Positions 1-13,252 of a stretch of DNA of 27,469 nt are shown one piece after another. Position 1 is the stretch's first letter; each line of letters opens with the position of its first letter. The notes beneath the pieces are model-generated. The model searched no databases. It saw only the letters and a program-made list of their open reading frames with translations, and was not told the origin of the DNA. This DNA is from a virus. The position numbers were made by a program, and so were the translations under genes. The DNA is taken from positions 1 to 27,469 of IMG/VR virus record IMGVR_UViG_3300032213_001650. One strand, written 5' to 3'.

Positions 1-302
1 ACAGTTACGGTTTTGTTTACGTTTGCATTTACGTTTTTTGCTTCTTCGACCGGGTTCCCCCTGTCCTACGGCTTCTACATTGCCGAGCTGTCCACTAATT
101 TACTTGTTGCCCTGTCGAATCTAGGTCAGGCCCTTCATAAAGAATCTATGTAATACTATCCAATAAAAATAGTTTAACGGAACTGCTAAACATAACAATA
201 TGTGATACCATTCAATATTCATAAACTTCCTTATGGTGGACCTGGGGGGATTCGCACCCCCGTCCAAGACACTTTTCTCTTTGCTTCATACAGCAATAAC
301 AC
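1..302 (-). ncRNA. ssrA: Circularly permuted (two-piece) tmRNA, cut by the window edge
   Basis: On the minus strand the acceptor piece comes first (about 302-234). It has a T-arm with GGGGG/CCCCC around TGCGAAT and ends CAGGTCCACCA. After a spacer of 100 nt the coding piece starts at 133 with GGGCCTGACC followed by the tmRNA-typical ATTCGACAGGG. GGGCCTG pairs with CAGGTCC over seven positions with one G-U, so the two parts rebuild one acceptor stem in permuted order. Further on, the stretch before and at the resume codon aligns with E. coli tmRNA (GCAAAAAA...GCAAACG). The resume codon is probably GCA at 26-24, giving a tag beginning ANVNKTVT before the sequence leaves the window. Permuted tmRNAs are known from alphaproteobacteria, some betaproteobacteria and cyanobacteria. 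tmRNA rescues stalled ribosomes. The processed ends are inferred. Confidence 0.88.
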
Positions 303-306
303 TTAT

Positions 307-837
307 TTATTCGTCGTCTACTTGATCAACTGGAATCCACCCTAGTTTAAAAAAGTCTTCGCGGATCTCATCTGTTACTGTACCTTCGCTAACAAAGTCG
401 CCAGGCAGCGTGGTGGGTATTGGCACAGTAAGATTGCTCGCACCACGTATACCAGAACAGTAATAATCTATATAATCACCTGATTCAACCATGTCGGCAA
501 CAATACCTCCGGCATAGCGCCATGAGCAACTGTAAGTCTCACCTTTTAAAAGTGGCCAAACTTCGTTGCGTTGCCAGTTTTGATTGCACATGGCAGCATA
601 CAGATTCTGTGCGTAAAATTCGTTGGCTTTGGCCTTGTCACATATCCATTTGGCACTGCGCAAGTCATATTCTAAGTTGTTCTTTTGCCATTCTGTATCG
701 GCCTCTCTAACCAACTTATCAATATTATGTTGTTTGTACATTGCGATGTATGACTTACTGGGCTCTTTGCCCTGTTCTTCACACCGCTTGATGTACTTTT
801 CTTTTTGAAATGTATTACGCTCAGGACTGGAGTTCAT
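307..837 (-). CDS. Conserved-looking phage protein of unknown function
   Basis: A 176-residue soluble protein with no signal peptide or membrane segment. The N-terminal half (about 1-75) is charged and probably helical. The C-terminal half holds a GGIVADM...GDYIDYYCSG stretch (residues about 110-130) and a GTVTDEIREDFFKLGW motif close to the end. This type of sequence recurs in T4-like phages from memory, but I cannot assign a function. The start is supported by an AGGAAG ribosome binding site a few bases before the ATG. The gene lies between the tRNA-fMet gene and the tmRNA acceptor piece, and its stop codon sits almost directly against the tmRNA, so transcript processing probably separates them. 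Confidence 0.8.
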   Translation of the reverse strand: MNSSPERNTFQKEKYIKRCEEQGKEPSKSYIAMYKQHNIDKLVREADTEWQKNNLEYDLRSAKWICDKAKANEFYAQNLYAAMCNQNWQRNEVWPLLKGETYSCSWRYAGGIVADMVESGDYIDYYCSGIRGASNLTVPIPTTLPGDFVSEGTVTDEIREDFFKLGWIPVDQVDDE

Positions 838-855
838 GATGCTTCCTAAGTTAGA

Positions 856-930
856 TGGTTGCGGGGGAAGGACTCGAACCTCCGGCTTCCAGGTTATGAG
901 CCTGGCGGTCTACCACTGACGTACCCCGCG
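856..930 (-). tRNA. tRNA-fMet(CAT), initiator type
   Basis: A full cloverleaf with anticodon CAT. The 5' end CGCGGGG faces CCCCGCA, so position 1-72 is a C-A mismatch, the hallmark of bacterial initiator tRNAs. The anticodon stem is CCAGG/CCTGG, so only two of the three initiator G-C pairs are kept (an A-U replaces one). CCA is encoded. Confidence 0.9.
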
Positions 931-935
931 ATAAT

Positions 936-1136
936 TGGTGCCCGGCTACTCACACCACATGAGCCCCGAACTGAGCTGTTACTCTGTCCACGTTCTTTTC
1001 TATTTAGACAGGCAATCGTCCCTGCCTTTGTGATTTCTCAAGTCGCCGACGAGGCCTTAGCGGTAGATCCAATGCACCGTGCTACTGTCGTATCTAGCAA
1101 TAACGCACTTCAATAACGGTGAAGTGTAGCCGGGGA
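936..1136 (-). other. Non-coding spacer with a candidate structured RNA
   Basis: About 200 nt between two tRNA genes without a convincing ORF. It is closed by a perfect 9-bp inverted repeat, CCCGGCTAC at 941-949 and GTAGCCGGG at 1126-1134. Inside are an AGGCA/TGCCT hairpin near 1010-1030 and a perfect CACTTC/GAAGTG hairpin at 1106-1126 with a 9-nt loop. The strand is assumed from the flanking tRNAs. I do not recognise the family; RNase P, SRP and 6S signatures were not seen. Confidence 0.5.
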
Positions 1137-1226
1137 TGGCGGAAGCGGTGAGATTCGAACTCACGAGGGACGTTAATCCCTGCTGGGTTAGTAATCCAGT
1201 GCCATCGGCCACTCGGCCACGCTTCC
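1137..1226 (-). tRNA. tRNA-Ser with predicted anticodon ACT
   Basis: Class II tRNA: acceptor GGAAGCG/CGCTTCC, discriminator G, encoded CCA, and a long variable arm AGGGA/TCCCT. The anticodon loop reads TTACTAA in a CTGGA/CCCAG stem, giving ACT (codon AGU) and an A-C mismatch at 31-39. Bacterial tRNA-Ser for AGY codons normally carries GCT, so this one is odd. A normal Ser(GCT) gene is present at 7733-7822. Confidence 0.8.
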
Positions 1227-1279
1227 TATCTTTAAATATTATTTTAACAAGAAAACGTTACAAAGTCAATGGCGATTGG

Positions 1280-1507
1280 TTAAACAACTTCTTCGACCAC
1301 TGCACTTACTACGTCAGTTTGTGCAAGTGCCCACGCACACCACGCATCTGCAGATTGGCGGTCAATCCATGTTCTCTCATGCAATTTTTGACCACCATCG
1401 AGCTCGGTTACAGCTATCGTAGATGATTCATTGTTAAACTCGACAAGTTTTGCTTGATAGTCAGGCGATACGAAATCTAGACCAACTATTACTTTTGTTT
1501 TATACAT
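1280..1507 (-). CDS. Small hypothetical protein (75 aa)
   Basis: The start is supported by an AAAGGA ribosome binding site 6-7 bases before the ATG. The protein is acidic and soluble, with several tryptophans (residues about 47-58, RTWIDRQSADAWCAWALAQ) and no signal peptide. It lies directly downstream of the YkuK-like gene in the same orientation, and tRNA-Ser follows it, so the three are probably co-transcribed. I do not recognise the family. An alternating strand and helix pattern suggests a small alpha/beta fold. Confidence 0.7.
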   Translation of the reverse strand: MYKTKVIVGLDFVSPDYQAKLVEFNNESSTIAVTELDGGQKLHERTWIDRQSADAWCAWALAQTDVVSAVVEEVV

Positions 1508-1528
1508 AATTTTTCCTTTAAAAATATG

Positions 1529-2029
1529 CTAGAATTTTTCATTAACTCTGGCACGATAACTAGCAGTTGATAACCCTTTAAACCGATCCGCCGCATAACT
1601 GGCAGCAAATGCATTAGGTTTAACTGATGGCGTCACATTACATGTTCCTTTAATGTACCCTACAGCCTGAGAGATCACACAACTCGACCCGTATTTATCG
1701 TCAGGATTGATATCCAAATGCACCTCAACATGGCGATTTTCCAACACTTCACCTAGCTTTAAGTACAGTTCGGATACTTTATACACTTCGTTCATTAGAC
1801 GCATACTTGGCCGCGATGTTTTTTGATCAAAGTCTCGTTCACGGTGTACTTCACCAAATAGCTTGCACCCGCTGTTGCCATTGATATGTACCACAACAGC
1901 CAACACATAATCAGCGTACCAGACACCGTTTACACGATGTCTTTCAGAGTCGCAACCAAGATAAATTTTAGTCTCAGGAGTTTGTTCTTCGATGAACTTT
2001 TTTACTTTGACAAGATTGATTTTTTCCAT
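1529..2029 (-). CDS. YkuK-like (DUF458) predicted RNase H-like nuclease
   Basis: A 166-residue protein resembling the YkuK/DUF458 family, which is predicted to have an RNase H-like fold. The opening strand carries KIYLGCDSE (acidic residue D27), as in RNase H-like enzymes. A second acidic cluster, EVHLDINPDDKYGSS (residues about 102-116), is followed by the YIKG segment seen in this family. The substrate is unknown; a structure-selective or RNA-processing nuclease is plausible from the fold but unproven. The ribosome binding site is weak. The gene lies between tRNA-Leu and a 75-aa small gene on the same strand. Confidence 0.75.
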   Translation of the reverse strand: MEKINLVKVKKFIEEQTPETKIYLGCDSERHRVNGVWYADYVLAVVVHINGNSGCKLFGEVHRERDFDQKTSRPSMRLMNEVYKVSELYLKLGEVLENRHVEVHLDINPDDKYGSSCVISQAVGYIKGTCNVTPSVKPNAFAASYAADRFKGLSTASYRARVNEKF

Positions 2030-2041
2030 AATGTTTTACTC

Positions 2042-2125
2042 TGGTGGGGATAGTCAGACTCGAACTGACACGCACTAGGCACTGGCTTCTAAGACCAGCG
2101 TGGCTACCAATTACACCATATCCCC
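2042..2125 (-). tRNA. tRNA-Leu(TAG)
   Basis: Class II cloverleaf: acceptor GGGGATA/TATCCCC, anticodon loop CTTAGAA in a CTGGT/GCCAG stem, T-arm GTCAG/CTGAC, discriminator A and encoded CCA. It reads CUA. Confidence 0.93.
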
Positions 2126-2132
2126 TTTTGTT

Positions 2133-2208
2133 TGGCTCCTCGACCTGGGCTCGAACCAGGGACAACTTGATTAACAGTCAAGTGCTCTACCAACTGAGCT
2201 ATCAAGGA
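2133..2208 (-). tRNA. tRNA-Asn(GTT)
   Basis: Standard cloverleaf: acceptor TCCTTGA/TCGAGGA, anticodon loop CTGTTAA in a CTTGA/TCAAG stem, discriminator G and encoded CCA. It lies 7 nt upstream of tRNA-Leu. Confidence 0.95.
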
Positions 2209-2214
2209 ATAATC

Positions 2215-2370
2215 TTACTTGCGTTCTTTCGGTGCAAATGCTACCGGGGTTGCTTGTGCATCAATCATGGCTCTTTTAAATCCGTTGCGATCGTGTTGAT
2301 CTTTAAACTTTAACAATGCCATCAATGTTTTTGTTCGTTTACTGAGTTTGAATGCGGATGTTGTTTTCAT
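2215..2370 (-). CDS. Small basic phage protein (51 aa)
   Basis: The best start is the ATG at 2370, preceded by AAGGAAATAC, rather than an upstream ATG 45 bases earlier that lacks a ribosome binding site. The product begins MKTTSAFKLSKRTKTLMALL. It is rich in Lys and Arg, has no cysteines or membrane segment, and ends APKERK. Small basic proteins of this type are common in T4-like phages, but no function can be assigned. It sits in the tRNA array between tRNA-His and tRNA-Asn. Confidence 0.65.
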   Translation of the reverse strand: MKTTSAFKLSKRTKTLMALLKFKDQHDRNGFKRAMIDAQATPVAFAPKERK

Positions 2371-2424
2371 GTATTTCCTTGTTGAGATATTTATTTGTGC
2401 AACTGTGTGATGCAATTATATGCA

Positions 2425-2500
2425 TGGGGAGTCGTACGGGAATCGAACCCATATTAACGGAATCACAATCCGTGGTGTTAACCTTTACACTAACAACTCC
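2425..2500 (-). tRNA. tRNA-His(GTG)
   Basis: Anticodon loop TTGTGAT in a CGGA/TCCG stem. The extra 5' G(-1) is encoded and pairs with C73, the identity feature of tRNA-His. CCA is encoded. Confidence 0.93.
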
Positions 2501-2505
2501 GTAAG

Positions 2506-2580
2506 TGGTCTCGCCTGCAGGAATCGAACCCACATTCAAGAGGTAGAAGCTCTTTGTATTATCCATTATACTAAGGCGAG
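2506..2580 (-). tRNA. tRNA-Arg(TCT)
   Basis: Acceptor CTCGCCT/AGGCGAG, anticodon loop CTTCTAC in an AAGAG/CTCTT stem, discriminator A and encoded CCA. It reads AGA. Confidence 0.93.
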
Positions 2581-2582
2581 AA

Positions 2583-2660
2583 TGGCAGAGGGTACTGGAT
2601 TCGAACCAGTGATCATGGAGTCAAAGTCCAATGCTTTAGACCAAACTAAGCTAACCCCCA
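2583..2660 (-). tRNA. tRNA-Gln(TTG)
   Basis: It starts TGGGGGT with an unpaired U1-U72, as expected for the weak first pair of tRNA-Gln. The anticodon loop is CTTTGAC, the discriminator is G and CCA is encoded. It reads CAA. Confidence 0.9.
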
Positions 2661-2727
2661 ATAATATTTGTTATGGCAATACAGTAGAAAATCAAGCCAA
2701 CAATCCCAACACTTTCTTTATATGACA

Positions 2728-4212
2728 TTAGCTGAGTTTTTTGTAAATGTACTTGCTGATATCAAAATTCATTAACTTTTCATGCTCCTCAAAAGTGAGT
2801 TTTAGTCTTTCAGTGACGTGCATGGGCTTGACCAATCTGTAATTTATCATAAAACCACCTGGCCTAAAATCGTGTTGTTGTTTGACTTGGTATGCATAAT
2901 TAACAAAACGCATAGCATCAAATATATTCATGTTTTCATTTTTCCAGTATATTTCGTCAAACGGTTTATACTTTCCTTTGCGTAAAAGTGTTGTCACTTT
3001 AGAATCTACAGTTAAGTCCTCTTTGGCAACTTCCTCCTTGGGCATTTCTTGATAACCATATGCCTCTAAGTTAGCTGACATATCAGACTGTTTAGTAATT
3101 TGCCCGGGTGCAGGAAGCCCCAATGGATGTATACTAAAGCCGTGCCCTTGCCAGTTTTGTACCATCCAATCTAATGTATCCCTAAGGGTATCATTGGTTT
3201 CATAAGGCAACCCAGCAATTAATCCTATGTTTGCACGAAAGAGTTTACTGCCGTTTGATTCAAAGTATTTTTTAACACCAAGTAACCCATCTTTAATTTT
3301 GGTAATCCCCATGCCTTTGCCAACTGCTTGTGCAGATTTATGGTTCATTGACTCGATGCCATAGTAATGTCCCAGTACATTCATGCGTAGTAATTCTTCT
3401 TGGTCATATGGCCGAGCGGCAAGCAAATCCAATCGCAGATAAGCACTAAACCAAGGTGTGAAATTTAATTTTTCAACAACATTTGCAAATTTTGTAATTT
3501 TTTCTGTACGGTCGTTAAACGTTTCGTCGGCTATTATGTAAGAGCTTACTCCAAATCTATTGTATGCATCTTTGAGTTGAATTTCAAAATCAACCGAATC
3601 TCTTGAGGTGTCTTCTTTGACGCCCAACACAGGGAATTGACAAAACGCACATTTAAATTTACAACCTCGTGCCAATTCTACAGTTAGCCACTCGTCGCTT
3701 TCGATGAAATCTCTATCCTCGTATTTTACCATGAGAGATTTCATTGGAAACGCTGGATAGTGTTCTATAGCCGGAATAACTTTCCTACTACCCAACATTT
3801 CAAATTTTGGGAGTAGGCCATTCCCGGCCACGTATTTTAACAAGTTTACAATTGCATGTTCACCAAACCCTTGCACGTAATAATCAATACAAGTTGATGT
3901 AAACATTGGGTTTACAGACGAACCGGATATTAACGTCACATTTGGGTAATTTTTTTTAATCCACCATCCAAATTGTTCCATGGTTTCGGACCATATACTG
4001 TATAAATGTCCAAACCCAACAAATACAACATCCTTGGTATATCGTGATCGGAAAAAATCTTGTAGTTGTTCCAATGACCACCAATTGGCCCAGTCAACTA
4101 CTTCAATGTCCCACCCTTGCTCTCGCAAATAGTGAGCTATGCGATGTCCTCCTAATGGGCGAGACAATGATGCATCTTGTGTTACATTGAACATTAATCC
4201 TTTATATTGCAT
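2728..4212 (-). CDS. B12-binding-domain radical SAM enzyme
   Basis: A 494-residue protein. Residues about 1-125 look like a cobalamin-binding (Rossmann-like) domain, with GGHRIAHYLREQGWDIEVVDW and later FVGFGH and LISGSSVNP strands. The radical SAM core follows, with the cluster motif ARGCKFKCAFCQ (C184, C188, C191) and typical later elements, such as an IIADETFNDR strand and an NIGLIAGLPYET segment. Such enzymes cleave SAM to a 5'-deoxyadenosyl radical and often methylate or rearrange unactivated carbons. The substrate cannot be read from the sequence. It is flanked by tRNA genes, and MetK and a ferredoxin later in the window could supply SAM and electrons. The ribosome binding site is weak, and an internal Met7 start is possible. 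Confidence 0.9.
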   Translation of the reverse strand: MQYKGLMFNVTQDASLSRPLGGHRIAHYLREQGWDIEVVDWANWWSLEQLQDFFRSRYTKDVVFVGFGHLYSIWSETMEQFGWWIKKNYPNVTLISGSSVNPMFTSTCIDYYVQGFGEHAIVNLLKYVAGNGLLPKFEMLGSRKVIPAIEHYPAFPMKSLMVKYEDRDFIESDEWLTVELARGCKFKCAFCQFPVLGVKEDTSRDSVDFEIQLKDAYNRFGVSSYIIADETFNDRTEKITKFANVVEKLNFTPWFSAYLRLDLLAARPYDQEELLRMNVLGHYYGIESMNHKSAQAVGKGMGITKIKDGLLGVKKYFESNGSKLFRANIGLIAGLPYETNDTLRDTLDWMVQNWQGHGFSIHPLGLPAPGQITKQSDMSANLEAYGYQEMPKEEVAKEDLTVDSKVTTLLRKGKYKPFDEIYWKNENMNIFDAMRFVNYAYQVKQQHDFRPGGFMINYRLVKPMHVTERLKLTFEEHEKLMNFDISKYIYKKLS

Positions 4213-4236
4213 CTAGTACTTACGCCTATAAAAACT

Positions 4237-4311
4237 TGGTGGTGATGAGTAGAATCGAACTACCACTGGACTCCGTATGAAGGAGGCGCACTACCGTTAT
4301 GCTACATCACC
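4237..4311 (-). tRNA. tRNA with anticodon CAT (elongator Met, or Ile2)
   Basis: Acceptor GGTGATG/CATCACC, anticodon loop TTCATAC, discriminator A and encoded CCA. It lacks the initiator C1-A72 mismatch. Whether C34 is converted to lysidine (Ile2, reading AUA) cannot be decided by eye. Confidence 0.88.
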
Positions 4312-4313
4312 GA

Positions 4314-5102
4314 TTAATCAAAGTAGTATTCAAGATCAGTAAGGCCAGCCACATTAGAGTAATCTAATCCGTGTATGTAAGATTCGCGACGCAAGACATT
4401 ACCGGGCACTAAATCTCGACGAATGTGTGTTAATTCCATACATCCAAACACGCCATCAGAATCAAACCCCACGTGATTGTTGCCGTGTACATGTACAATA
4501 GCATAGTGCTCTTGCCACCGTTCAACAGCCTGTTGCCATTGTTTACTACGATTTGCACAGTTGTGCCATTCCATTGCAACACCCACAATGCGATCTCGAT
4601 GTTGTAGAACGCTTTCAATTAAACTGTACTCGCCACCTTCAATATCCATTTTAATGAACACTTGGTCTACACCCATTCTGTCCAGAGCTCTGGCAAAGTT
4701 TTCAGGTCCAATAAACTCAGGCCAATGTTTTACATTACCTTGAAAGAATTCGTCGTACATGGCTCGAATGTCCAAGTGTCCGCGAACAGGCGTATTAATA
4801 CTAATACGCATGGTATCTCTAGTGACACTGGCGTCATACATTTGAATTGGATCTGTGGGTTTGAGATTATGCCAATCTTGATCAAATGTAAAATCGTCAC
4901 CTAGCCCAAAACTCAGCAGGCCCTGTGATTTTTCTACTGCAAGACGTGGCACAATATAGCCGCCGTCCATTTTTCCACCTAATCTAATCAGGTCAGGTGC
5001 TGCCACTGGGCAGAACCAATGTAGTTCTTGGGGTAGTTTAATTTTCATAACATTATTTATTGACTGGATTTTGCACCATATAGAAACACTCTTATTCTCC
5101 AT
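4314..5102 (-). CDS. FkbM-like SAM-dependent methyltransferase
   Basis: A 262-residue protein resembling the FkbM/Methyltransf_21 type. An N-terminal LIRLGGKMDGGYIVP segment (about 38-52) is followed by LLSFGLGDDFTFD, a plausible SAM-binding glycine motif (about 62-74). The FkbM-like KMDIEGGEY motif is at 151-159. FkbM enzymes O-methylate sugars or other small molecules; the substrate here is unknown. The stop codon is almost flush with tRNA-Met. Start choice is unsure: the ATG at 5102 has GAGAAGG too close for ideal spacing, and Met19 (ATG at 5048) is an alternative. A CTCGG/CCGAG hairpin at 5106-5123 lies just before the upstream start and could affect its translation. Confidence 0.75.
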   Translation of the reverse strand: MENKSVSIWCKIQSINNVMKIKLPQELHWFCPVAAPDLIRLGGKMDGGYIVPRLAVEKSQGLLSFGLGDDFTFDQDWHNLKPTDPIQMYDASVTRDTMRISINTPVRGHLDIRAMYDEFFQGNVKHWPEFIGPENFARALDRMGVDQVFIKMDIEGGEYSLIESVLQHRDRIVGVAMEWHNCANRSKQWQQAVERWQEHYAIVHVHGNNHVGFDSDGVFGCMELTHIRRDLVPGNVLRRESYIHGLDYSNVAGLTDLEYYFD

Positions 5103-5169
5103 ACCTTCTCGGCGATCAATCCGAGGTGTTACTTCACAGAACCTGCGTCCAGTTTAGAGTGCTTTTATA

Positions 5170-5243
5170 TGGTAGGGGTGCAGGGGAACGATCCCTGTTT
5201 TACGGATTAAAAGTCCGTTACTTCACCTTAAAGTTTCACCCCC
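5170..5243 (-). tRNA. tRNA-Lys(TTT)
   Basis: Acceptor GGGGGTG/CACCCCT with G1-U72, anticodon loop CTTTTAA in an ACGGA/TCCGT stem, discriminator A and encoded CCA. The D-stem is short. Its first 21 nt are also the 3' end of the small gene at 5223-5366. Confidence 0.88.
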
Positions 5244-5366
5244 CAATGGGTGTTGTTTTTGTGCTCGACGCAGAGCCTTGTTGCTCTTACGATGCGCACC
5301 TGCTTTGCGGAACAGTGCAAGACAAACGAAGCAGTTACGTTCGCGCACGATCGGTTTACGTTTCAT
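5223..5366 (-). CDS. Small basic phage protein (47 aa) overlapping tRNA-Lys
   Basis: The ATG at 5366 follows AAAAGGAAATTGT, a strong ribosome binding site at good spacing. The product starts MKRKPIVRERNCFVCLALFR and continues KAGAHRKSNKALRRAQKQ, a strongly basic sequence with a CxxC pair (residues 12 and 15). From memory, short proteins with an LFRKAGAHRKSNKALRR-like core occur in many T4-like phages; their role is unknown. The last seven codons and the stop lie inside the tRNA-Lys gene, so RNase P cleavage at the tRNA 5' end would cut the mRNA within the coding sequence. Confidence 0.75.
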   Translation of the reverse strand: MKRKPIVRERNCFVCLALFRKAGAHRKSNKALRRAQKQHPLGGETLR

Positions 5367-5385
5367 ACAATTTCCTTTTATAAAA

Positions 5386-5459
5386 TGGTGGAGGATGGGA
5401 GGATCGAACTCCCATAAACAGCTTGCAAAGCTGCCGTAATCCCATTATACTAATCCCCC
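5386..5459 (-). tRNA. tRNA-Ala(TGC)
   Basis: Acceptor GGGGGAT/ATCCTCC with the G3-U70 pair that defines tRNA-Ala. Anticodon loop TTTGCAA in a GCAGC/GCTGT stem, discriminator A and encoded CCA. Confidence 0.95.
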
Positions 5460-5484
5460 AAATGCTCTGCATCCCCCGGCGGTA

Positions 5485-5493
5485 ATTATAGCA
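5485..5493 (-). promoter_or_regulatory. Extended -10 promoter for tRNA-Ala
   Basis: TGCTATAAT, an extended -10 element with a perfect TATAAT, ends 26 nt before the mature tRNA-Ala 5' end. No convincing -35 box is seen, which fits an extended -10 promoter. Confidence 0.5.
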
Positions 5494-5744
5494 CATCAAC
5501 ATAGATTAATCCGGAATCTAACTCAACTAAGGTTAGCGATTCTATGCATCACACGTGCCTTCCACCCGCTTCCCGGCAGGGACCGTTATCGCATTGCCAG
5601 CGGCCTTTGGGTTCAAAGACTACCACCCGTAGCTGTCATACTACTTCTCATCGTGCGGGTCACACTATCCGGAGACACCCGGAACGTTCGGTAATACTGT
5701 TACTAACCAGTAACAGCAATAAATATTATATCAAACAATCATAT
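5494..5744. other. Non-coding, GC-richer spacer with several inverted repeats
   Basis: About 250 nt between the tRNA-Ala promoter and the plus-strand oxygenase gene, with no convincing ORF. Inverted repeats include TAGATT/AATCTA near 5512-5530 with a 7-nt loop, CATAGA/TCTATG spanning the same area, and a perfect 8-bp CTGTTACT/AGTAACAG hairpin with an AACC loop at about 5698-5717. AATAAATA at 5718-5725 resembles a T4-type late promoter for the downstream plus-strand gene. Its composition is less AT-rich than the neighbouring gene, as expected for a structured RNA. Confidence 0.4.
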
Positions 5745-6392
5745 ATGAATTACAGCCAATTAAAATTACCATCAAATCCACTGGCTATTGGAGCAATTGA
5801 GTATATTTCTGGCAGTGATGAAAAATGGGGACATCGATATGCAATAACTGATGTACCAAAAATTTTTAATTCTGATGTTCTTGAAATATTCAAAAATTTA
5901 AATATAACTCCTTACTGTGTTGTTATTCCAAAATGGAAAGTAGACATGATTAGCACTCCACAAGAACTAACAACATCGAGATTTTGCACACCAATACACA
6001 GTGATTATTTTCAAATTAATGGGCATCGTTACAGTTATCCGTGTGCAATTAATTGGGAATTAAATAACGATGCATACGTAACCTGGAGTTTCTGGAACGC
6101 ACATAACAACGAAAATGTTTCGTATCAAAATGAAACTTTTGCTGCACAGATAGGTCCATTGCCGTTTAATAAGACTTATCTTAATGGCACTAGATTCGAT
6201 GAAAAATCTACACTGTTAGAACAGGTTGACTTGCAACCATTTACTCCGTATCTTGTCAACACATCAATGCCACACTGTGTGGAATTTAATGTGCCGTCCG
6301 AAAGACGACTGGCACTAAGTTTACGATTCAACATTGAAGATATTGCCACTTGGGAACAGGCTGTGCAGATCTTTAAAAATTACTTTGTATAA
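5745..6392 (+). CDS. Fe(II)/2-oxoglutarate oxygenase-like protein
   Basis: A 215-residue protein starting MNYSQLKLPSNPLAIG; the open frame extends upstream, but that part is spacer. A candidate iron-binding facial triad is visible: HSD at 85-87 (H-x-D) and a distal His at 177 (SMPHCVEF), followed by arginines near 187-194 (SERRLALSLRF) that could hold 2-oxoglutarate. This order and spacing match small phage 2OG oxygenases, which hydroxylate proteins, nucleic acids or small molecules; the substrate is unknown. The gene is on the strand opposite to the tRNAs, is AT-rich, and has no clear Shine-Dalgarno sequence. An AATAAATA late-like element lies 20 nt before the ATG. Confidence 0.65.
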   Translation: MNYSQLKLPSNPLAIGAIEYISGSDEKWGHRYAITDVPKIFNSDVLEIFKNLNITPYCVVIPKWKVDMISTPQELTTSRFCTPIHSDYFQINGHRYSYPCAINWELNNDAYVTWSFWNAHNNENVSYQNETFAAQIGPLPFNKTYLNGTRFDEKSTLLEQVDLQPFTPYLVNTSMPHCVEFNVPSERRLALSLRFNIEDIATWEQAVQIFKNYFV

Positions 6393-6393
6393 T

Positions 6394-6478
6394 TGGTGGA
6401 GATGACAGGGATCGAACCTGTTGTGACCGAAGTCGGAAGATTTACAGTCTCCTGCCATACCATTACGGCGGCATCTCC
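6394..6478 (-). tRNA. tRNA-Tyr(GTA)
   Basis: Class II cloverleaf: acceptor GGAGATG/CATCTCC, anticodon loop CTGTAAA in a GGAGA/TCTTC stem, a long variable arm, discriminator A and encoded CCA. Its 3' end is 1 nt from the stop codon of the convergent oxygenase gene. Confidence 0.94.
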
Positions 6479-6485
6479 AAAATTG

Positions 6486-6545
6486 AACAGGACACCCCTT
6501 TGGCCTAGGTCGTTTAAGAGTACGCCTGCCCAGCGACTCTCCTGA
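6486..6545 (-). other. Candidate small structured RNA between tRNA-Tyr and tRNA-Glu
   Basis: A short spacer that can fold as nested stems. CAGGA and TCCTG (5 bp) enclose AGAGT and ACTCT (5 bp, 14-nt loop); the two 3' arms are directly adjacent. No ORF. The strand is assumed from the neighbouring tRNAs and the identity is unknown. Confidence 0.35.
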
Positions 6546-6549
6546 AACT

Positions 6550-6624
6550 TGGTACTCGATAGCGGAATCGAACCGCTCTTGCCTGGATGAAAACCAGATG
6601 TCCTAACCGATAGACGAATCGAGC
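6550..6624 (-). tRNA. tRNA-Glu(TTC)
   Basis: Acceptor GCTCGAT/ATCGAGT (G1-U72), anticodon loop TTTTCAT in a TCTGG/CCAGG stem, T-arm AGCGG/CCGCT, discriminator A and encoded CCA. Confidence 0.93.
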
Positions 6625-6632
6625 AAAAAGAG

Positions 6633-6697
6633 GAGAGCCACGGTTGCAGGACCTAGTGTCTCGTTACCGAGAGAAGTGTCCAGGCGATGTGGCTCTC
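6633..6697 (-). ncRNA. 65-nt nested hairpin, candidate small RNA
   Basis: A perfect 9-bp outer stem, GAGAGCCAC at 6633-6641 and GTGGCTCTC at 6689-6697, encloses a GGAC/GTCC stem and an apical TCTCG/CGAGA hairpin with a 4-nt loop. The layout is a rod-like three-helix RNA of tRNA size, between tRNA-Glu and tRNA-Asp. It has no tRNA T-arm and no ORF. Function and strand are unknown; minus is assumed from the array. Confidence 0.5.
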
Positions 6698-6703
6698 AAA
6701 CGT

Positions 6704-6778
6704 TGGCGGTCTGTGGGGGAATCGAACCCCCGTAAGTGGATAGACAATCCACAGTAATAACCTCTATACGAACAGACC
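6704..6778 (-). tRNA. tRNA-Asp(GTC)
   Basis: Acceptor GGTCTGT/ACAGACC, anticodon loop TTGTCTA in a GTGGA/TCCAC stem, T-arm GGGGG/CCCCC, discriminator G and encoded CCA. Only one nucleotide separates its 5' end from the 22-bp helix of the large structured RNA upstream. Confidence 0.95.
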
Positions 6779-7165
6779 TAATATTGTTAGTTTTGCTGAC
6801 GCACTATTTGCTGTACCTCAACGGAATTGGTGGCCACACTACCGTTTATCGATATAGTTACGTAGGGTTGACGTTTACCCAATGGCTTACGTCAGCAAAA
6901 CTAACAACATTAAAAATTCACTATATGAAAACACATTAGGATGTTTGATAGAAATCACAGTTTTGAACCTGCCCTACCGTGCCGTCCACGGACTTGTCTA
7001 CCATCCACATTACCGGCCAAGTTGTTCCAGCGTGACTACCGTAACTCGTGACTTTCATCACTGATACGCCCATCTTTCGTGTAACTTAGCAGAGCCTAGC
7101 CGTCACTAGGATTTAGATCTCTGCATAAGCTACCTACTGGCTTGGTAACCCGATGCGTTTACATA

Positions 7166-7192
7166 TAGTGCCCGGATCGGATCCGAGTACTA
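7166..7192 (-). other. 5' hairpin of the large structured RNA
   Basis: TAGT and ACTA form the outer pairs and CGGAT/ATCCG, with a CCG loop, the inner stem. It lies about 45 nt downstream of the predicted P1 start and just after the boxA-like element. Confidence 0.55.
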
Positions 7193-7200
7193 TACAAAAT

Positions 7201-7216
7201 TAAATTTTTAAAGAAC
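7201..7216 (-). promoter_or_regulatory. boxA-like antitermination element
   Basis: On the minus strand the sequence is GTTCTTTAAAAATTTA, close to the boxA of proteobacterial rRNA leaders (E. coli TGCTCTTTAACA). It lies 20-36 nt after the predicted P1 start and before the large RNA and the tRNA genes, the position expected for Nus-factor antitermination of a long untranslated transcript. Assignment is by motif only. Confidence 0.5.
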
Positions 7217-7220
7217 AATT

Positions 7221-7236
7221 AGTTAATTTCCTAACT
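7221..7236 (-). other. 5' GNRA-tetraloop hairpin of the P1 transcript
   Basis: AGTTAG-GAAA-TTAACT on the minus strand, 6 bp with one G-U, lying at the predicted transcript start. The same hairpin with an A-U pair instead occurs after P2 (7319-7334). Confidence 0.5.
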
Positions 7237-7243
7237 AGTCTCT

Positions 7244-7272
7244 AGTATAACACAATGGTTATATCTAGTCAA
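7244..7272 (-). promoter_or_regulatory. Sigma70 promoter P1 of the RNA array
   Basis: TTGACT (7272-7267), a 17-bp spacer, and TATACT (7249-7244). Initiation is expected near 7237, reading leftwards into the large structured RNA and tRNA-Asp. Confidence 0.85.
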
Positions 7273-7287
7273 TTTGTTTTGCAAAGT

Positions 7288-7304
7288 CCCTACAACATGT
7301 AGGG
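7288..7304. repeat. CCCTAC hairpin upstream of P1
   Basis: Perfect inverted repeat CCCTAC/GTAGGG around a 5-nt loop, extendable by GCAAA/TTTGC. A related hairpin (CCCTA/TAGGG) lies upstream of P2 at 7388-7404. Together with the promoters these form a module of about 97 bp present twice in tandem. Confidence 0.55.
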
Positions 7305-7318
7305 TTATTTGCAGATCC

Positions 7319-7334
7319 AGTTAATTTCTTAACT
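7319..7334 (-). other. 5' GNRA-tetraloop hairpin of the P2 transcript
   Basis: AGTTAA-GAAA-TTAACT on the minus strand, a perfect 6-bp stem with a GAAA loop, at the predicted start of the P2 transcript. It matches the hairpin after P1. Confidence 0.5.
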
Positions 7335-7341
7335 TGTTTCT

Positions 7342-7370
7342 ATTATAGCAAAACGGCATTTAAAGGTCAA
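7342..7370 (-). promoter_or_regulatory. Sigma70 promoter P2 of the RNA array
   Basis: TTGACC (7370-7365), a 17-bp spacer, and a perfect TATAAT (7347-7342). It lies about 98 bp upstream of P1 in the second copy of the promoter module. Confidence 0.87.
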
Positions 7371-7411
7371 CTTAATACTTTGGTATACCCTATTGTCAGT
7401 AGGGTTATTAT

Positions 7412-7485
7412 TGGCGTACCTCCAAGGACTCGAACCTTGACTGACGGTTTTGGAGACCGCGGTGCTGCCATTACACCAGAGATAC
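7412..7485 (-). tRNA. tRNA-Trp(CCA)
   Basis: Acceptor GTATCTC/GAGGTAC, anticodon loop CTCCAAA in a GCGGT/ACCGT stem, discriminator G and encoded CCA. Confidence 0.94.
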
Positions 7486-7491
7486 ATTATT

Positions 7492-7565
7492 TGGTAGCCT
7501 GTAGAGGTAACGATCCTCTGTCGCTCGATTATCAGTCGAGTGCTCTACCTTTGAGCTAACGGGCT
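7492..7565 (-). tRNA. tRNA-Ile(GAT)
   Basis: Acceptor AGCCCGT/ACAGGCT with one C-A mismatch at position 5, anticodon loop CTGATAA in a CTCGA/TCGAG stem, discriminator A and encoded CCA. Confidence 0.92.
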
Positions 7566-7570
7566 ATGTT

Positions 7571-7646
7571 TGGCGGGTCCTAGAGGAGTCGAACCCCTAA
7601 CTTACGGTTTCGAAGACCGATATGATATCCATTTCACTAAAGACCC
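7571..7646 (-). tRNA. tRNA-Arg(TCG)
   Basis: Acceptor GGGTCTT/AGGACCC, anticodon loop CTTCGAA in a TCGGT/ACCGT stem, discriminator G and encoded CCA. It reads CGA, a codon that bacterial Arg(ACG) tRNAs read poorly. Confidence 0.92.
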
Positions 7647-7650
7647 AGAT

Positions 7651-7726
7651 TGGTAGGAACGGTCGGACTCGAACCAACCACACACGGATTTTCAATCCGT
7701 TGCTCTACCTGATGAGCTACGTTCCC
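7651..7726 (-). tRNA. tRNA-Phe(GAA)
   Basis: Acceptor GGGAACG/CGTTCCT (G1-U72), anticodon loop TTGAAAA in an ACGGA/TCCGT stem, discriminator A and encoded CCA. Confidence 0.94.
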
Positions 7727-7732
7727 ATTGTT

Positions 7733-7822
7733 TGGCGGTGTGACTGAGACTCGAACTCAGAACCCGGATTACGCCGAGCGACGGTTTAGCAAACCGCTCC
7801 GATACCATTACGGGACCACACC
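7733..7822 (-). tRNA. tRNA-Ser(GCT)
   Basis: Class II cloverleaf: acceptor GGTGTGG/TCACACC, anticodon loop TTGCTAA in a GCGGT/ACCGT stem, a long variable arm, discriminator G and encoded CCA. It reads AGC and AGU. Confidence 0.93.
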
Positions 7823-7826
7823 TTAT

Positions 7827-7916
7827 TGGTGGAAGCGGTGAGATTCGAACTCACGGTGCCTTTCGGCACGACAGTTTTCAAGACTGTTGCCATAAACCAG
7901 ACTCGACCACACTTCC
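7827..7916 (-). tRNA. tRNA-Ser(TGA)
   Basis: Class II cloverleaf: acceptor GGAAGTG/CGCTTCC, anticodon loop CTTGAAA in an ACAGT/ACTGT stem, variable arm GTGCC/GGCAC, encoded CCA. The discriminator is A instead of the usual G of tRNA-Ser. Its T-arm and 3' acceptor strand match those of the Ser(ACT) gene at 1137-1226, suggesting shared origin. Confidence 0.9.
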
Positions 7917-7985
7917 TATTATTAATACCGCTAACATTTATCAAAGATTTGCCAAACTTTGCTACCGAGCCAGTTAAATACGCAT

Positions 7986-8972
7986 ATGAAAATTTATCTT
8001 GACGGCTTTTTCCATCAACTGTACCAACACCCAGACACCGCAACACTTTTAACAAACATAGATGAAATACCCAACGACTGCGATATAGTTGCTGTGAGTT
8101 TCTATAACAATCACTGGCAAGAGTATCAACAAACAATAAAAGAATTGTCAACCCGTACTAAAAAACTTTTGGTAAATCTTAGCGAACCTACGCCTGGTAA
8201 AATAGGATTTACAGACTTTGTTAACAGCATAAACTACAGCAATGTTTATCTGTTTAGCGATGTAGTGTTTAATCATACTGTATTGCCCACAGCTAACATA
8301 GAAACTATTATATCTTGGTTCATATGTAGTGAGAACTTATATGCGACCCAACACTGGGCCCACGAACGCATTGATAAATTACACCGTGGATTCGATCGTT
8401 CTAAACGGTTTGATTGCTTACTGGGCAAACAACGACAACATAGAGACATTATCAACACATACTACAACAACAGTCTACAGCGTGACAACATTGTGTTCTC
8501 ATATACAGGCTGTACCCAAACTGGTATTTGGGATCCAGATGTTGATCACCAACGACTGCATTGGGGAACTTCGACAGAAATACCTCGTGATGTATTTTTG
8601 CCGTTGACTATATACAATCAAACCTATTACAGCATTGTGGCCGAGACCACTACTGAAAATAGCTATAACCAGTATACTGAAAAAGTTGCCAAACCTTTGA
8701 TTGCTGGCAGGCCATTTGTGGCATTTGCCGGACAAAATTATTTGTCTAATTTACAGCGTCTGGGATTTAAAACTTTTTCGACTGTGGTAGATGAAAGTTA
8801 CGATTCCATTGGTGATTTAAATCAACGCATGAAGGCTGCATGGACTCAAGTTGAGTGGTTGTGTAGTCAGGATCCTGCCCAGGTGTACAGTGAACTCGAG
8901 GAGGTGTTGCAACATAACCACCAACATTTCTTAACTACTGACTGGCACCAGGCCATTCGAAAACATTTTTAA
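7986..8972 (+). CDS. Putative glycosyltransferase (exostosin/GT-B-like C-terminus)
   Basis: A 328-residue protein beginning MKIYLDGFFHQLYQHPDT; a start nine codons earlier is less likely. The C-terminal half has TYYSIVAETT (about 213-222) and then YTEKVAKPLIAGRPFVAFAG (230-249) and LQRLGFKTF. That TEK-KP-GxPF pattern is typical of exostosin-like and other GT-B glycosyltransferases that bind a nucleotide sugar there. The N-terminal half has alternating strands such as DCDIVAVSFY and is not diagnostic. No membrane segment or signal peptide. It is a plus-strand gene inserted in the minus-strand tRNA array, with no Shine-Dalgarno sequence but a TTAAATA element at 7974-7980 resembling a late promoter. 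The acceptor is unknown. Confidence 0.65.
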   Translation: MKIYLDGFFHQLYQHPDTATLLTNIDEIPNDCDIVAVSFYNNHWQEYQQTIKELSTRTKKLLVNLSEPTPGKIGFTDFVNSINYSNVYLFSDVVFNHTVLPTANIETIISWFICSENLYATQHWAHERIDKLHRGFDRSKRFDCLLGKQRQHRDIINTYYNNSLQRDNIVFSYTGCTQTGIWDPDVDHQRLHWGTSTEIPRDVFLPLTIYNQTYYSIVAETTTENSYNQYTEKVAKPLIAGRPFVAFAGQNYLSNLQRLGFKTFSTVVDESYDSIGDLNQRMKAAWTQVEWLCSQDPAQVYSELEEVLQHNHQHFLTTDWHQAIRKHF

Positions 8973-8978
8973 AACACT

Positions 8979-9070
8979 TGGTACCCCCGGCGGGAATTGA
9001 ACCCACATGAACCAATTATCTGTTGCTTACGGGATATAAATCCGCCGTTTTACCATTAAACTACAGGGGC
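8979..9070 (-). tRNA. tRNA with long variable arm, predicted anticodon TAT
   Basis: Acceptor GCCCCTG/CGGGGGT, D-stem GTTT/AAAC, T-arm GTGGG/CCCGC, discriminator A and encoded CCA. The anticodon loop reads TTTATAT in a GCGGA/CCCGT stem with an A-C mismatch at 31-39, giving TAT (Ile, AUA). The variable region is about 22 nt, which is unusual for an isoleucine tRNA and more like Ser, Leu or Tyr types. Amino acid identity is therefore uncertain. Confidence 0.75.
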
Positions 9071-9078
9071 AAATTTAT

Positions 9079-9153
9079 TGGAGCACAGGACAGGACTCAA
9101 ACCTGCATAGTACGGATTTGCAATCCGTTGCGTAATCATTCCGCCACCTGTGC
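9079..9153 (-). tRNA. tRNA-Cys(GCA)
   Basis: Acceptor GCACAGG/CCTGTGC pairs perfectly. Anticodon loop TTGCAAA in an ACGGA/TCCGT stem, discriminator T (U73, the Cys identity base) and encoded CCA. Confidence 0.95.
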
Positions 9154-9871: not shown

Positions 9872-10819
9872 TTACCTTGGAGGTGCAAATGAAGGAATCT
9901 TCCGAGCATAGTCTTTGTAGATGTCAATTTGCTGTTGGATAAACTCCGGCTTGAGTATAACATTCTTGGGATCAACTTGCAAGTCGCTTATTTCACTAAA
10001 GCGTTCTCTTTGGGCAGGATTGTTGTACAGCTTGACCAACGCACGTTGTACTGTTTTAACTACTTCAGGATCTGTACCGGGACTGGCAACTACGATTTGC
10101 CATACAGGTAACCACGCATCACTCATGCCAATTTCGTTAAGAGTAGGCACATCGGGCAAAGACTTAATGCGTTCGTGGCCTGCTACTGCAAAAGGAATAA
10201 CTGTACCATCCCGGATAAAGTCTTGTATTTCTAGTCTAAAACTGTAGGCAGTTTTAATTTGTCCTGTTAGCAACTCGGGCATCAACATGGCACTGCCACG
10301 ATAGGGAACATGCAACATTTTCTTATTGCCGCGATAAAATAGCACTTCGCCATCTAGGTGTGTGCCTGCACCGATGCCGCTACTGCCAAAAGTGACAGGT
10401 ACGGTGGGATCTAACCGGTCCCAGTCTGACTTGTTTCTAATCGGCATGCTTTTGTGACTTACAAAGATCATGGGTGTAGTGCCCAGATATGCCACTGGTA
10501 CCAAGTTACGATAGTTGTAGTTGGGGTTAGGAGAGATGTTCCACCACGGCAAGTTGATGTTGGTTAACAACAAGTTGTTTTCTTTGCTGTGATCTCTGGC
10601 CACTGCGCCCACTGCTAAGTCGCCGCCTGCTCCAGGTTTGTAGTCAATGATGATCCTGTTAGGAATGTCTTTTTGCAACTCAACTTGCAATGCTCGTGCA
10701 ATCTTGTCACTGTTACTGCCAGCGGCGTAACCAACGTACAGCGTAATCACTGGCAATTCTTTGGCTGTGCTAATAACTGTTAGTAGTCCTAACGCCGCTC
10801 CTATAATAATTTTTTTCAT
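9872..10819 (-). CDS. TctC/Bug-family periplasmic solute-binding protein
   Basis: A 315-residue protein of the tripartite tricarboxylate transporter receptor (Bug) family. Residues 1-20 form a signal peptide (KK, hydrophobic GAALGLLTVIST, AKE). The family pattern follows: YAAGSNSDKIARAL, the DYKPGAGGDLAVG segment (about 60-72), VPVTFGSSGIGAGTHL (about 124-139), VPYRGSAMLMPELLTGQI (about 156-173) and a SLPDVPTLNEIG stretch. Such proteins bind carboxylates or other small organic ligands in the periplasm for a TctAB permease. No permease gene is near, so the protein would serve a host transporter or have another role. Bug proteins are greatly expanded in betaproteobacteria, which may hint at the host. 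It lies 9 nt after the PP-loop gene; no strong ribosome binding site is seen. Confidence 0.93.
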   Translation of the reverse strand: MKKIIIGAALGLLTVISTAKELPVITLYVGYAAGSNSDKIARALQVELQKDIPNRIIIDYKPGAGGDLAVGAVARDHSKENNLLLTNINLPWWNISPNPNYNYRNLVPVAYLGTTPMIFVSHKSMPIRNKSDWDRLDPTVPVTFGSSGIGAGTHLDGEVLFYRGNKKMLHVPYRGSAMLMPELLTGQIKTAYSFRLEIQDFIRDGTVIPFAVAGHERIKSLPDVPTLNEIGMSDAWLPVWQIVVASPGTDPEVVKTVQRALVKLYNNPAQRERFSEISDLQVDPKNVILKPEFIQQQIDIYKDYARKIPSFAPPR

Positions 10820-10828
10820 TTTAACAAC

Positions 10829-11974
10829 TTATTCTATAAAATAATTTTTACTAACTGAACTCTTAAGACCTTTTGAAATATTTGTTGGATCATTCTTCCA
10901 ATAATCTGGAATAGTATTCCATACCTTTTCTAATCCAAACTGCCAATTTAACAAATACTGGCTGGTTGATTCTAATTTAAAAAACCATTCGTCTCTATCG
11001 GCAAATATAATACTTCTAGGTTTTGCCGCAGTAATGCCCATGCCTGGATTCCAATCTGGGTAAATCAATGCGTGTAATCCGTTGTTAGTCAATCCATACT
11101 TTTTACCATCAATAATCTTATATACCAAGTCTGCCTTGCCTTCAACTACATAAGGTAAGTCTTTTGCATTTGGTGCATCCAAATATCGTTTAACCAAGTG
11201 CGCTTGTTTGATAACAATTTCTGGTTTGTCCGGAGTCCAAAAGAATAGTTCATCTGTGTAGGGCTGTTGCCCGGCAATGCTGGTAACGTCCGGAATAAAC
11301 CCGATTGTGTCTTGGAACCGCAAACAGAACCGGCCGTCTACATGATGAATTCTGGGCTTGTCTGCTCCGTATATTATGCAGATCTTTTTACCTGCATGAA
11401 TCATGTCAGCCCACTCTTTAACTTTCATACCAAGGGATTCTTTGGCCAGTACAATTGGCGTTAAAATCATATTGGCTTGATATATCCAATTAAATTTGTT
11501 TGTTGAGCTACTGAAGTAATCTAACATCAAATCAGTAAAATCAATAATACGATGTTTAAGCCAAGGTCTTGTTTCTGTTAGACGTTTAATAGTAGGTATT
11601 GCTACTTCAACAATCTCTTTGTTTTGTACGTTGTTTTTGTCGCCTGTTGCACGATAGTTAGTAAAGCTCACTACTTCGTCCAGTTTGATATCGTTATTAA
11701 TAAACGCATCTAGCACTGTTTGACTGTCTGCACCACTGCTGTAATTTAATATAACATAGTCGTATTGGTCTCGTATTTGTTGGGCACGTTCTCTGTACAA
11801 CTCTAAAATAGAAGTAACAGGTTCTTTGGTCCAATCATAACTGCTGAACACTGCTTCGTTAAAATCCCAATGCGGATGGATACCTGTTTTGGCATGCATT
11901 TCAATTGCTTCAAATTTGCTGTGAAATTTAAGGTCACCGACTCGGTAGACGCCCATTTTGTCTTGGTGTGTCAT
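10829..11974 (-). CDS. PP-loop ATP pyrophosphatase-like protein
   Basis: Start ATG at 11974 (MTHQDKMGVYRVG...); a TTG two codons upstream is less likely. The 381-residue protein carries YVILNYSSGADS at about 73-84, a variant of the PP-loop SGGxDS motif that binds ATP in N-type ATP pyrophosphatases (asparagine synthetase, QueC, TtcA, PAPS reductase). The second position is Ser rather than Gly. Following strands (LDEVVSFTNYR) fit the fold. The C-terminal 250 residues, with many aromatic residues, match nothing I know. Such enzymes activate a carbonyl or tRNA base by adenylation; the substrate is unknown. It lies between the TauD-like and TctC genes. A TATAAATT late-like element at 11988-11981 precedes the start. 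Confidence 0.75.
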   Translation of the reverse strand: MTHQDKMGVYRVGDLKFHSKFEAIEMHAKTGIHPHWDFNEAVFSSYDWTKEPVTSILELYRERAQQIRDQYDYVILNYSSGADSQTVLDAFINNDIKLDEVVSFTNYRATGDKNNVQNKEIVEVAIPTIKRLTETRPWLKHRIIDFTDLMLDYFSSSTNKFNWIYQANMILTPIVLAKESLGMKVKEWADMIHAGKKICIIYGADKPRIHHVDGRFCLRFQDTIGFIPDVTSIAGQQPYTDELFFWTPDKPEIVIKQAHLVKRYLDAPNAKDLPYVVEGKADLVYKIIDGKKYGLTNNGLHALIYPDWNPGMGITAAKPRSIIFADRDEWFFKLESTSQYLLNWQFGLEKVWNTIPDYWKNDPTNISKGLKSSVSKNYFIE

Positions 11975-11988
11975 TCTCAAAATTTATA

Positions 11989-13185
11989 TTAATATGATCC
12001 GATGGTACTGTAACTAGGATCAGACTTTAACAAATCTTTAACTTGATCTTTTGGAAATCTATTTAAAAATTCCCTACGCTCGTCGCCTGCTAGTTCGCTA
12101 ATAGTGGTTTTCATTTCACGGAGTTGATTTAATTTTCCAACTTCTAATATTAGCTTCATAGATTCATTACGTTTGCTAATATATGGTTCTTGAAAATATG
12201 GATTATAATCTTCTAGTCCTGCATAATCCATTGGGCAACGATATCCTAGTCTTTGCGTTAGCTCTTTGGTCATGTCAAGTCCTGGACGAATACTTCTGTT
12301 ATGAACCATTATGGTATTATCAAACAATAGTAAATCGCCACTGTCATTTTCCCACCAGTGATCGTAAACGTATGTTTCGTTAAAAACTTCTGTGCGTATG
12401 CGATCTACTAACTTATCGGACTCTGTTTGACTCATGCCTTTAAATCCAATAATGGTGTGCTCGCTGAAATGTAATCCGGTTATACCGCCTGGACTTTTTA
12501 TTACTAACGGCATTTCGACCATATCGTCAGAGCTCCCGGTGAAATTACCTTTCATTGCAATATCATAACGATCGTCTGCTTGCGGCTCAATTGCTTTGGG
12601 TTTCCACTTGTGTTGCGCTACTAATTCTTTTAGCTCACTTTGAAATGCCTGTGTTTGTTGTTCATACCAATCAGTCATTTGACAAAAGCCAGTGGCACTA
12701 GTACTCATGTGCTGTGCGCCGTACAGTGCAACCAATGGAGCAAAACTATAAATGCCGCTTTCGTTGCTGTGCCACAGCAATTCTGTATCACCAAAGATAC
12801 CAGTTAAGTCACCCTGTGCATCTCGTTTACCGGTTACTCGTGACCAATTATGAGGGCTAAGTCCGTAATCCTCGGTCATTTTCCATTTACTTACAACTGA
12901 AAAACTGATTTGGTCGTCCTCGTCCCATGAATCAAATTTGTTAATAAAGTCTGTGCCATATTTTTTAATGTAATAGGCGTCACGACTTCGGCGACTTGTG
13001 CCTAGCAAGTATATGTTCTTGATAATAGATCTAAAATTCTGTGTTGTCCCATTTCCTCGAACTACAGTTAGCAATGTTTTAAGATTAACCTCTTGTAGTT
13101 CTTTCCAAGCATCGATGCTATCCCATTCGAAGTTGTCAACATACGCACCGAAACTACCGAGTCCGTTAATTTTTGTGATTTTCAT
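11989..13185 (-). CDS. TauD/TfdA-like oxygenase with altered iron motif
   Basis: A 398-residue protein with TauD/TfdA-type organisation. The proximal metal motif is LLWHSNESG (H139, S140, N141), where the family has WHTD. The distal part has DLLLFDNTIMVHNRSIR, with His295 as the distal ligand and Arg297 or Arg300 as a 2-oxoglutarate-binding candidate. Family members are Fe(II)/2OG dioxygenases of taurine, herbicides or amino acids. Asn in place of the metal-binding Asp is unusual; loss of this carboxylate is known in 2OG halogenases, but there it becomes Ala or Gly. The ATG is preceded by AAGGA and a perfect TATAAATA at 13211-13204. Substrate unknown. Confidence 0.78.
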   Translation of the reverse strand: MKITKINGLGSFGAYVDNFEWDSIDAWKELQEVNLKTLLTVVRGNGTTQNFRSIIKNIYLLGTSRRSRDAYYIKKYGTDFINKFDSWDEDDQISFSVVSKWKMTEDYGLSPHNWSRVTGKRDAQGDLTGIFGDTELLWHSNESGIYSFAPLVALYGAQHMSTSATGFCQMTDWYEQQTQAFQSELKELVAQHKWKPKAIEPQADDRYDIAMKGNFTGSSDDMVEMPLVIKSPGGITGLHFSEHTIIGFKGMSQTESDKLVDRIRTEVFNETYVYDHWWENDSGDLLLFDNTIMVHNRSIRPGLDMTKELTQRLGYRCPMDYAGLEDYNPYFQEPYISKRNESMKLILEVGKLNQLREMKTTISELAGDERREFLNRFPKDQVKDLLKSDPSYSTIGSY

Positions 13186-13203
13186 TGATGTGTTCCTTAA
13201 AAA

Positions 13204-13211
13204 TATTTATA
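13204..13211 (-). promoter_or_regulatory. T4-type late promoter core
   Basis: TATAAATA, the T4 late consensus, ends 18 nt before the ATG of the TauD-like gene. It lies in the 67-bp divergent spacer shared with the plus-strand radical SAM gene. Confidence 0.6.
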
Positions 13212-13252
13212 GATATTGCCAATGGTGCAATAGATTTACTAAGTATACTCAC

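Follow-up and report, generated by a model that had tools for sequence, protein, structure and literature searches.

Phage tmRNAs were known to exist, and a phage's need for one was unexplained. The locus considered here lies at the left end of a stretch of viral DNA of 27,469 bp, hereafter the window, and belongs to a lineage that combines a conserved, seemingly private tag with a ClpX altered at the residues that read ssrA. This raises the question of which protease degrades the products that are tagged in phage rescue. The original prediction, made from the letters alone, had asked more generally whether the RNA was taken from the host and whether it redirects tagged proteins.

The covariance model RF04321 (tmRNA_permuted) matches window positions 295-13 on the minus strand with 97.4 bits against a gathering threshold of 47 (E = 4.7e-18), and a search of the whole record places the match at 5-295 (-). 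The claim of a two-piece permuted form, in which the 3' half with its CCA precedes the 5' half, is borne out by this match. ARAGORN, the second program named in the original prediction, calls no tmRNA in the window; the most likely reason is that the left contig end cuts the tag. The gene, its parts and its immediate neighbours are as follows.

1..295 (-): permuted tmRNA gene, from RF04321; its 3' end is cut by the contig end
234..295 (-): acceptor piece (3' tRNA half: P2 strand, T arm, acceptor 3' strand and encoded CCA), from the covariance-model alignment and the sequence
238..244 (-): acceptor 3' strand CAGGTCC, from the sequence and covariation in relatives
237-234 (-): encoded ACCA, directly after the acceptor 3' strand
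134..233 (-): intervening segment of 100 nt
121..222 (-): hydrophobic ORF of 33 aa (MNIEWYHILLCLAVPLNYFYWIVLHRFFMKGLT) in the intervening segment, reaching 13 nt into the 5' piece
127..133 (-): acceptor 5' strand GGGCCTG, from the sequence and covariation in relatives
1..133 (-): coding piece (5' tRNA half, structured region and resume site), truncated, from the covariance-model alignment
1..26 (-): first part of the tag frame (ANVNKTVT and a further GT), the 26 nt of the tag left in the window
307..837 (-): neighbouring protein of 176 aa, used as the query for finding relatives
856..9153 (-): array of 21 tRNA genes

The seven-pair acceptor stem that the two halves were said to share (GGGCCTG with CAGGTCC) is present. 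Its third pair is G-U, i.e., the G3-U70 alanine signal, which the window shares with the fully paired relatives (GGG...TCC). In a set of 82 phage genes located via the resume site and the T arm, with acceptor pairing not required, all seven pairs are formed in 72 genes, representing 12 fully paired strand combinations (e.g., GGGCCTG/CAGGTCC, GGGGATG/CATCTCC, GGGCCAT/ATGGTCC and GGGTCCG/CGGATCC). The mean is 6.63 of seven pairs, compared to 5.64 with shuffled partners (maximum 5.89 in 1000 shuffles). As the acceptor stem covaries across phages, the tmRNA assignment is not due to chance. The resume codon GCA stands directly after CGTAAAT, and the resume site CGTAAATGCA is followed by eight tag codons. 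Window 1-295 (-) is confirmed as a real phage-resident, circularly permuted tmRNA, and its carrier is a huge bacterial virus.

The position beside phage tRNAs, also part of the original prediction, holds with 21 tRNA genes in the window. In the tRNA-rich part at 9872-14878, genes for a TctC-type binding protein, a TauD-type dioxygenase and a B12-binding radical SAM protein lie near one another. QueE-like and QueD-like genes at 20030-20926 and 25693-26199 (-) suggest a 7-deazaguanine pathway, serving queuosine or DNA modification. A megablast search for the nearest known phage returned a tRNA gene as its sole match, and a window protein picked as a marker for the same purpose turned out to be MetK, a methionine adenosyltransferase with three Pfam domains (18682-19782, minus strand). 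PHROG 1569, which matches this MetK, carries the label 'unknown function'.

The window contains neither the tag end nor any clp gene. Since its own tail is absent from the contig, the full tag of 27 residues was inferred from two relatives. The closest large relative is a contig of 346,856 bp (G001; L015/L189) that is collinear with the window, with segments mostly 76-95% identical. Its tmRNA is complete and encodes the tag ANVNKTVTVSGKNIKFSARSAKEALAV, comprising 27 residues and ending in LAV, not LAA. At the tmRNA gene, another relative (L150) is closer than G001, with 87.8% identity over the shared 304 nt and the tag ANVNKTVTVSGKNLKFSARSAKEALAV. The tag reading frame is complete with its stop in L015 and L150 and truncated in the window. 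After the window's ANVNKTVT, the relatives continue with VSGKN[ILV]KFSAR[ST]AKEALAV, a tail that the window's phage presumably has as well. The tag had been called unusual from its first residues, and the relatives' full sequence agrees with that description, while the AA-type C-terminal degron proposed as a sign of normal tagging is absent from it. The tags of G001, L150, L187 and L190 all end in LAV and lack the C-terminal Ala-Ala of the canonical ClpXP degron (ssrA LAA). The last residues of other related tags are VLA, LV or, in L669, even LAA, showing that the C-terminus is not fixed.

The 33-aa frame in the intervening segment is kept in L150 with seven base changes, four of which are silent. 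In 43 of 158 distinct phage intervening segments with a length of 40 nt or more, an ATG located 6-17 nt after the CCA opens at least 20 codons (mean 8.2 and maximum 17 upon shuffling). A sequence resembling a ribosome site accompanies 37 of these 43 ORFs, part of which could serve precursor pairing instead. Small genes of this kind occur in L004, L121, L222, L112, L019 and others. The products are unrelated among phages and include membrane peptides and a CxxCxxCC protein (PF03692). In G001 (L189), the intervening segment contains a reading frame whose product has an oxidoreductase-like domain (PF09791, E = 4e-11); no standard start codon was found for it in this segment.

The 5' signature GGGCCTG-N4-6-TTCGACAGGGCAA is present in at least 120 viral contigs, whereas 257 Gb of bacterial and archaeal genomes yield two matches, both in MAGs and neither a tmRNA. 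The distribution is that of a phage lineage and not of a recent host copy. Recent capture, one answer to the question of host origin raised in the original prediction, was rejected on these grounds. The class around one matching MAG offers no useful host control, with one permuted tmRNA in 369 sampled genomes. Most members of the phage tmRNA lineage keep tags of 10 aa. The commonest among the relatives, ANDEQFALAA and ANDSQFALAA, resemble tags of Betaproteobacteria, which makes an ancient bacterial origin of the tmRNA likely. As far as is known, the genus Xanthomonas uses a one-piece tmRNA; its phages X1 and Rb1 (L214, OQ427096.1; L215, PQ569993.1) carry unannotated permuted tmRNAs with the ARAGORN tags VAANDADYSVARYA and ANDDNFRPALRLAA.

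Phage tag lengths are bimodal. In a first census, 69 genes had 10-aa tags and a further set had tags of 24-33 aa; the long set later spanned 22-34 aa. Three long classes can be distinguished: the window's class (ANANT..VTVSGKNVKFSAR..LAV/FAV/VLA), which is basic and poor in aromatics, an aromatic class with an ALAA-like end (ANANTFEYFQVP..ANDEFALAA; L103, L169, L404 and others) and an acidic class (..VALDLSALADSDM..; L388, L409, L411 and L420). Fifty-nine viral contigs match a degenerate pattern describing the core of this first class, and in all 59 the match lies at the TAAATGC resume site of a tmRNA. In core sequences collected without this pattern, pN is 0.19 and pS 0.47 (pN/pS 0.4). Nucleotide identity amounts to 0.79 for the tag and 0.63 for the flanking RNA. 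The class has a conserved module, TVTVSGKNVKFSAR, which is basic and beta-strand-like. One could still suppose an ordinary phage tmRNA with a drifted tag and selection confined to the RNA or to ribosome rescue, as tmRNA mutants with altered tags remain able to rescue ribosomes. Yet the peptide core is kept while acceptor stems and flanks diverge, and both the pN/pS of the core and the bimodal lengths speak against drift, which we deem very improbable.

Comparison of the tag with Pfam, PDB and INPHARED gave no match, and in six-frame translations of the collected loci a tag model recovered nothing other than tmRNA tags above the HMMER inclusion threshold. The idea that the tag mimics a protein was dropped accordingly. 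A supposed likeness to the C-terminus of HU was not supported, and weak matches of the tag model in three contigs with altered ClpX (G057, G027 and G035) were attributed to chance.

Several of the relatives encode Clp proteins. ClpP was found in 10 of the 21 phage records, all of at least 214 kb, and six of these ten, including G001 and G013, have a ClpX over the NCBIfam cut-off. G001 encodes ClpX (313,908-315,107; 472 bits against TIGR00382, with a cut-off of 371), two ClpP-like proteins and a ClpA-type ATPase. In its ClpX, the Walker A motif, the GYVG pore-1 loop, the zinc-binding domain and the [IM]GF ClpP loop are intact. The second ClpP-like protein of G001 (335657-336232) is divergent and separated from the first by about 4 kb; a divergent second copy also occurs in several other records surveyed for ClpP. 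A 432-aa gene beside ClpP in G001, initially read as ClpX, is a radical SAM protein. Two genomes of the aromatic tag class (G006 and G018) have ClpP and no ClpX above the cut-off. SmpB is absent from 12 phage records, so host SmpB would be needed.

Canonical phage ClpX forms carry SIT in pore-2 together with RKH, KKH or RKN. An altered clade has TV[STA] in pore-2 and has lost the His of RKH: TVS with RKT in G001 and TVT with RKV in G013, in which SIT and His230 are absent. These altered proteins are monophyletic with a support of 99 (54 rows, loop columns left out), and the clade keeps GYVG, Walker A, the zinc-binding domain and the [IM]GF ClpP loop. Considering the 244 columns conserved in canonical phage ClpX, four of the six most changed (S197, I198, P231 and H230, in E. 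coli numbering as for T199) fall in the pore-2 and RKH loops, an enrichment (p = 0.001) that rests on an estimated 26 loop columns; T199 ranks 13th. In E. coli ClpX, T199, V202, R228 and H230 contact the ssrA degron, and the H230A mutation raises the KM for GFP-ssrA from 1.3 to 140-240 uM, about a hundredfold (PMC7652416). In human ClpX, positions 199 and 230 are both leucine, and ssrA substrates are not degraded by it (PMC7652416). A different reading of the same data is that the tag stabilises its products or at least does not lead to their degradation, such that ribosomes are rescued and products spared or diverted, while the ClpX change concerns other substrates. The loss of the LAA end would fit, as would the lack of likeness to any known family, structure or other protein in the collected loci. 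We consider it unlikely, given that the tags keep a short, non-polar end (LAV, FAV, VLA or LV), as would be expected of a C-degron, and that this lineage also shows changes in the ClpX loops responsible for reading C-degrons.

Altered ClpX and the window's tag class lie on one contig in G001 and G013, although the distance of 200 kb between the two genes in G001 counts against the pairing. Two contig pairs, each from one metagenome, add to this. G054 and G121 (148,970 and 197,025 bp) hold complementary sets of G001 genes, 101 and 98 with four shared, and sum to 346.0 kb. For G052 and G014 (111,611 and 228,286 bp), the numbers are 60 and 125 genes with two shared and 339.9 kb. The tetranucleotide correlation is 0.99 within both pairs, and each is best read as probably two parts of one genome. 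The tags that accompany altered ClpX in these pairs are AKASTGEVTVSGKNVKFSARTVKAESFAV and ANANTGEVTVSGKNVKFSARTAQRQSLAV. The window's tag class is consequently present in four of the four genomes that link altered ClpX to a known tag, two of the four being pieced together from complementary halves. Canonical ClpX loops occur with short tags (10-14 aa) in 14 genomes. At the level of metagenomes, a contig of the tag class was found in 13 of 42 where altered ClpX is the sole form and in two of 71 where the canonical form is (p = 4e-5), a comparison that habitat confounds. A further 70 long-tag records, mostly fragments below 100 kb, contained no ClpX. As altered ClpX arose once, the association of tag and ClpX amounts to about one correlated evolutionary change, not many.

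Long ssrA tags also occur in Mycoplasma and Mesoplasma, where they are read by Lon. They are similar in length to the phage tags and of a different sequence class. By analogy, the long phage tag might serve another host protease (Lon, FtsH or ClpAP), with phage ClpX unrelated to it. The aromatic-rich second phage class with its ALAA-like end and the ClpA-type ATPase of G001 can be cited in favor. Nonetheless, Lon is absent from the 21 phage records, the window's class is basic with few aromatics and the matching change sits in the loops of ClpX, making this explanation distinctly unlikely in our view.

With moderate confidence, we favor a phage-resident tmRNA engaged in ordinary trans-translation, whose tagged products would go to the phage's own ClpXP, this pair being partly insulated from that of the host. 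Host SmpB and host alanyl-tRNA synthetase would deliver and charge the phage tmRNA, which would enter stalled ribosomes, with translation resuming at GCA. The ribosome would then append 27 residues ending in LAV to the stalled polypeptide. Instead of the host LAA degron, this tag would have an AV-type C-terminus and contain TVTVSGKNVKFSAR, the basic module that resembles a beta strand. The tagged polypeptide would then pass to phage ClpX, in which the pore-2 and RKH loops are altered and ClpP docking is intact. For this scheme, we infer that the window's phage has the same ClpX as its relatives, as well as translation of the tag and its recognition by phage ClpX. Tentatively, the huge-phage lineage may have evolved an orthogonal pathway, in which the tmRNA writes a private degron and a re-specified phage ClpXP reads it, uncoupling turnover from the host ssrA-ClpXP route. 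Redirection of tagged proteins, as raised in the original prediction, went beyond the evidence then at hand; through the altered ClpX of the relatives, it becomes a concrete hypothesis.

The permuted two-piece tmRNA of Alpha- and Betaproteobacteria and Cyanobacteria (RF04321; PMC11915505) shares with the phage gene the permuted order, the encoded CCA, the 7-bp acceptor stem with G3-U70, the intervening segment and the GTAAATGC-type resume site. In contrast, the phage lineage has its own acceptor/D signature, a tag of 27 aa ending in LAV (about 10 aa ending in LAA in bacteria) and, often, a small protein encoded in the intervening segment. Marine phages such as Melnitz (PMC9004378) and huge phages (PMC7162821) likewise carry a tmRNA on lytic or huge phage genomes, and the Melnitz survey counts 53 two-piece forms among 133 unique tmRNA structures from 402 phages. 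The parts of these two reports covered here describe neither this tag class nor a link between phage tmRNA and phage ClpXP. They do record SmpB in some huge phages (PMC7162821), unlike the 12 records surveyed here. Jumbo genomes are also known to encode ClpX, ClpP and ClpA (Atu_ph07, PMC6102473; survey, PMC7824862), and the roles proposed for these proteins are replication, assembly of virions or attack on proteins of the host. The covered parts of either paper describe neither altered ssrA-reading loops nor a tie to a phage tmRNA tag.

What sets this permuted phage tmRNA apart is its tag class and the linked ClpX change, for which a private tag-protease pair is the best-supported, albeit unproven, reading. 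If true, it would represent a natural orthogonal degron-protease pair, useful for synthetic biology, and would mean that a virus takes over protein quality control in addition to translation.
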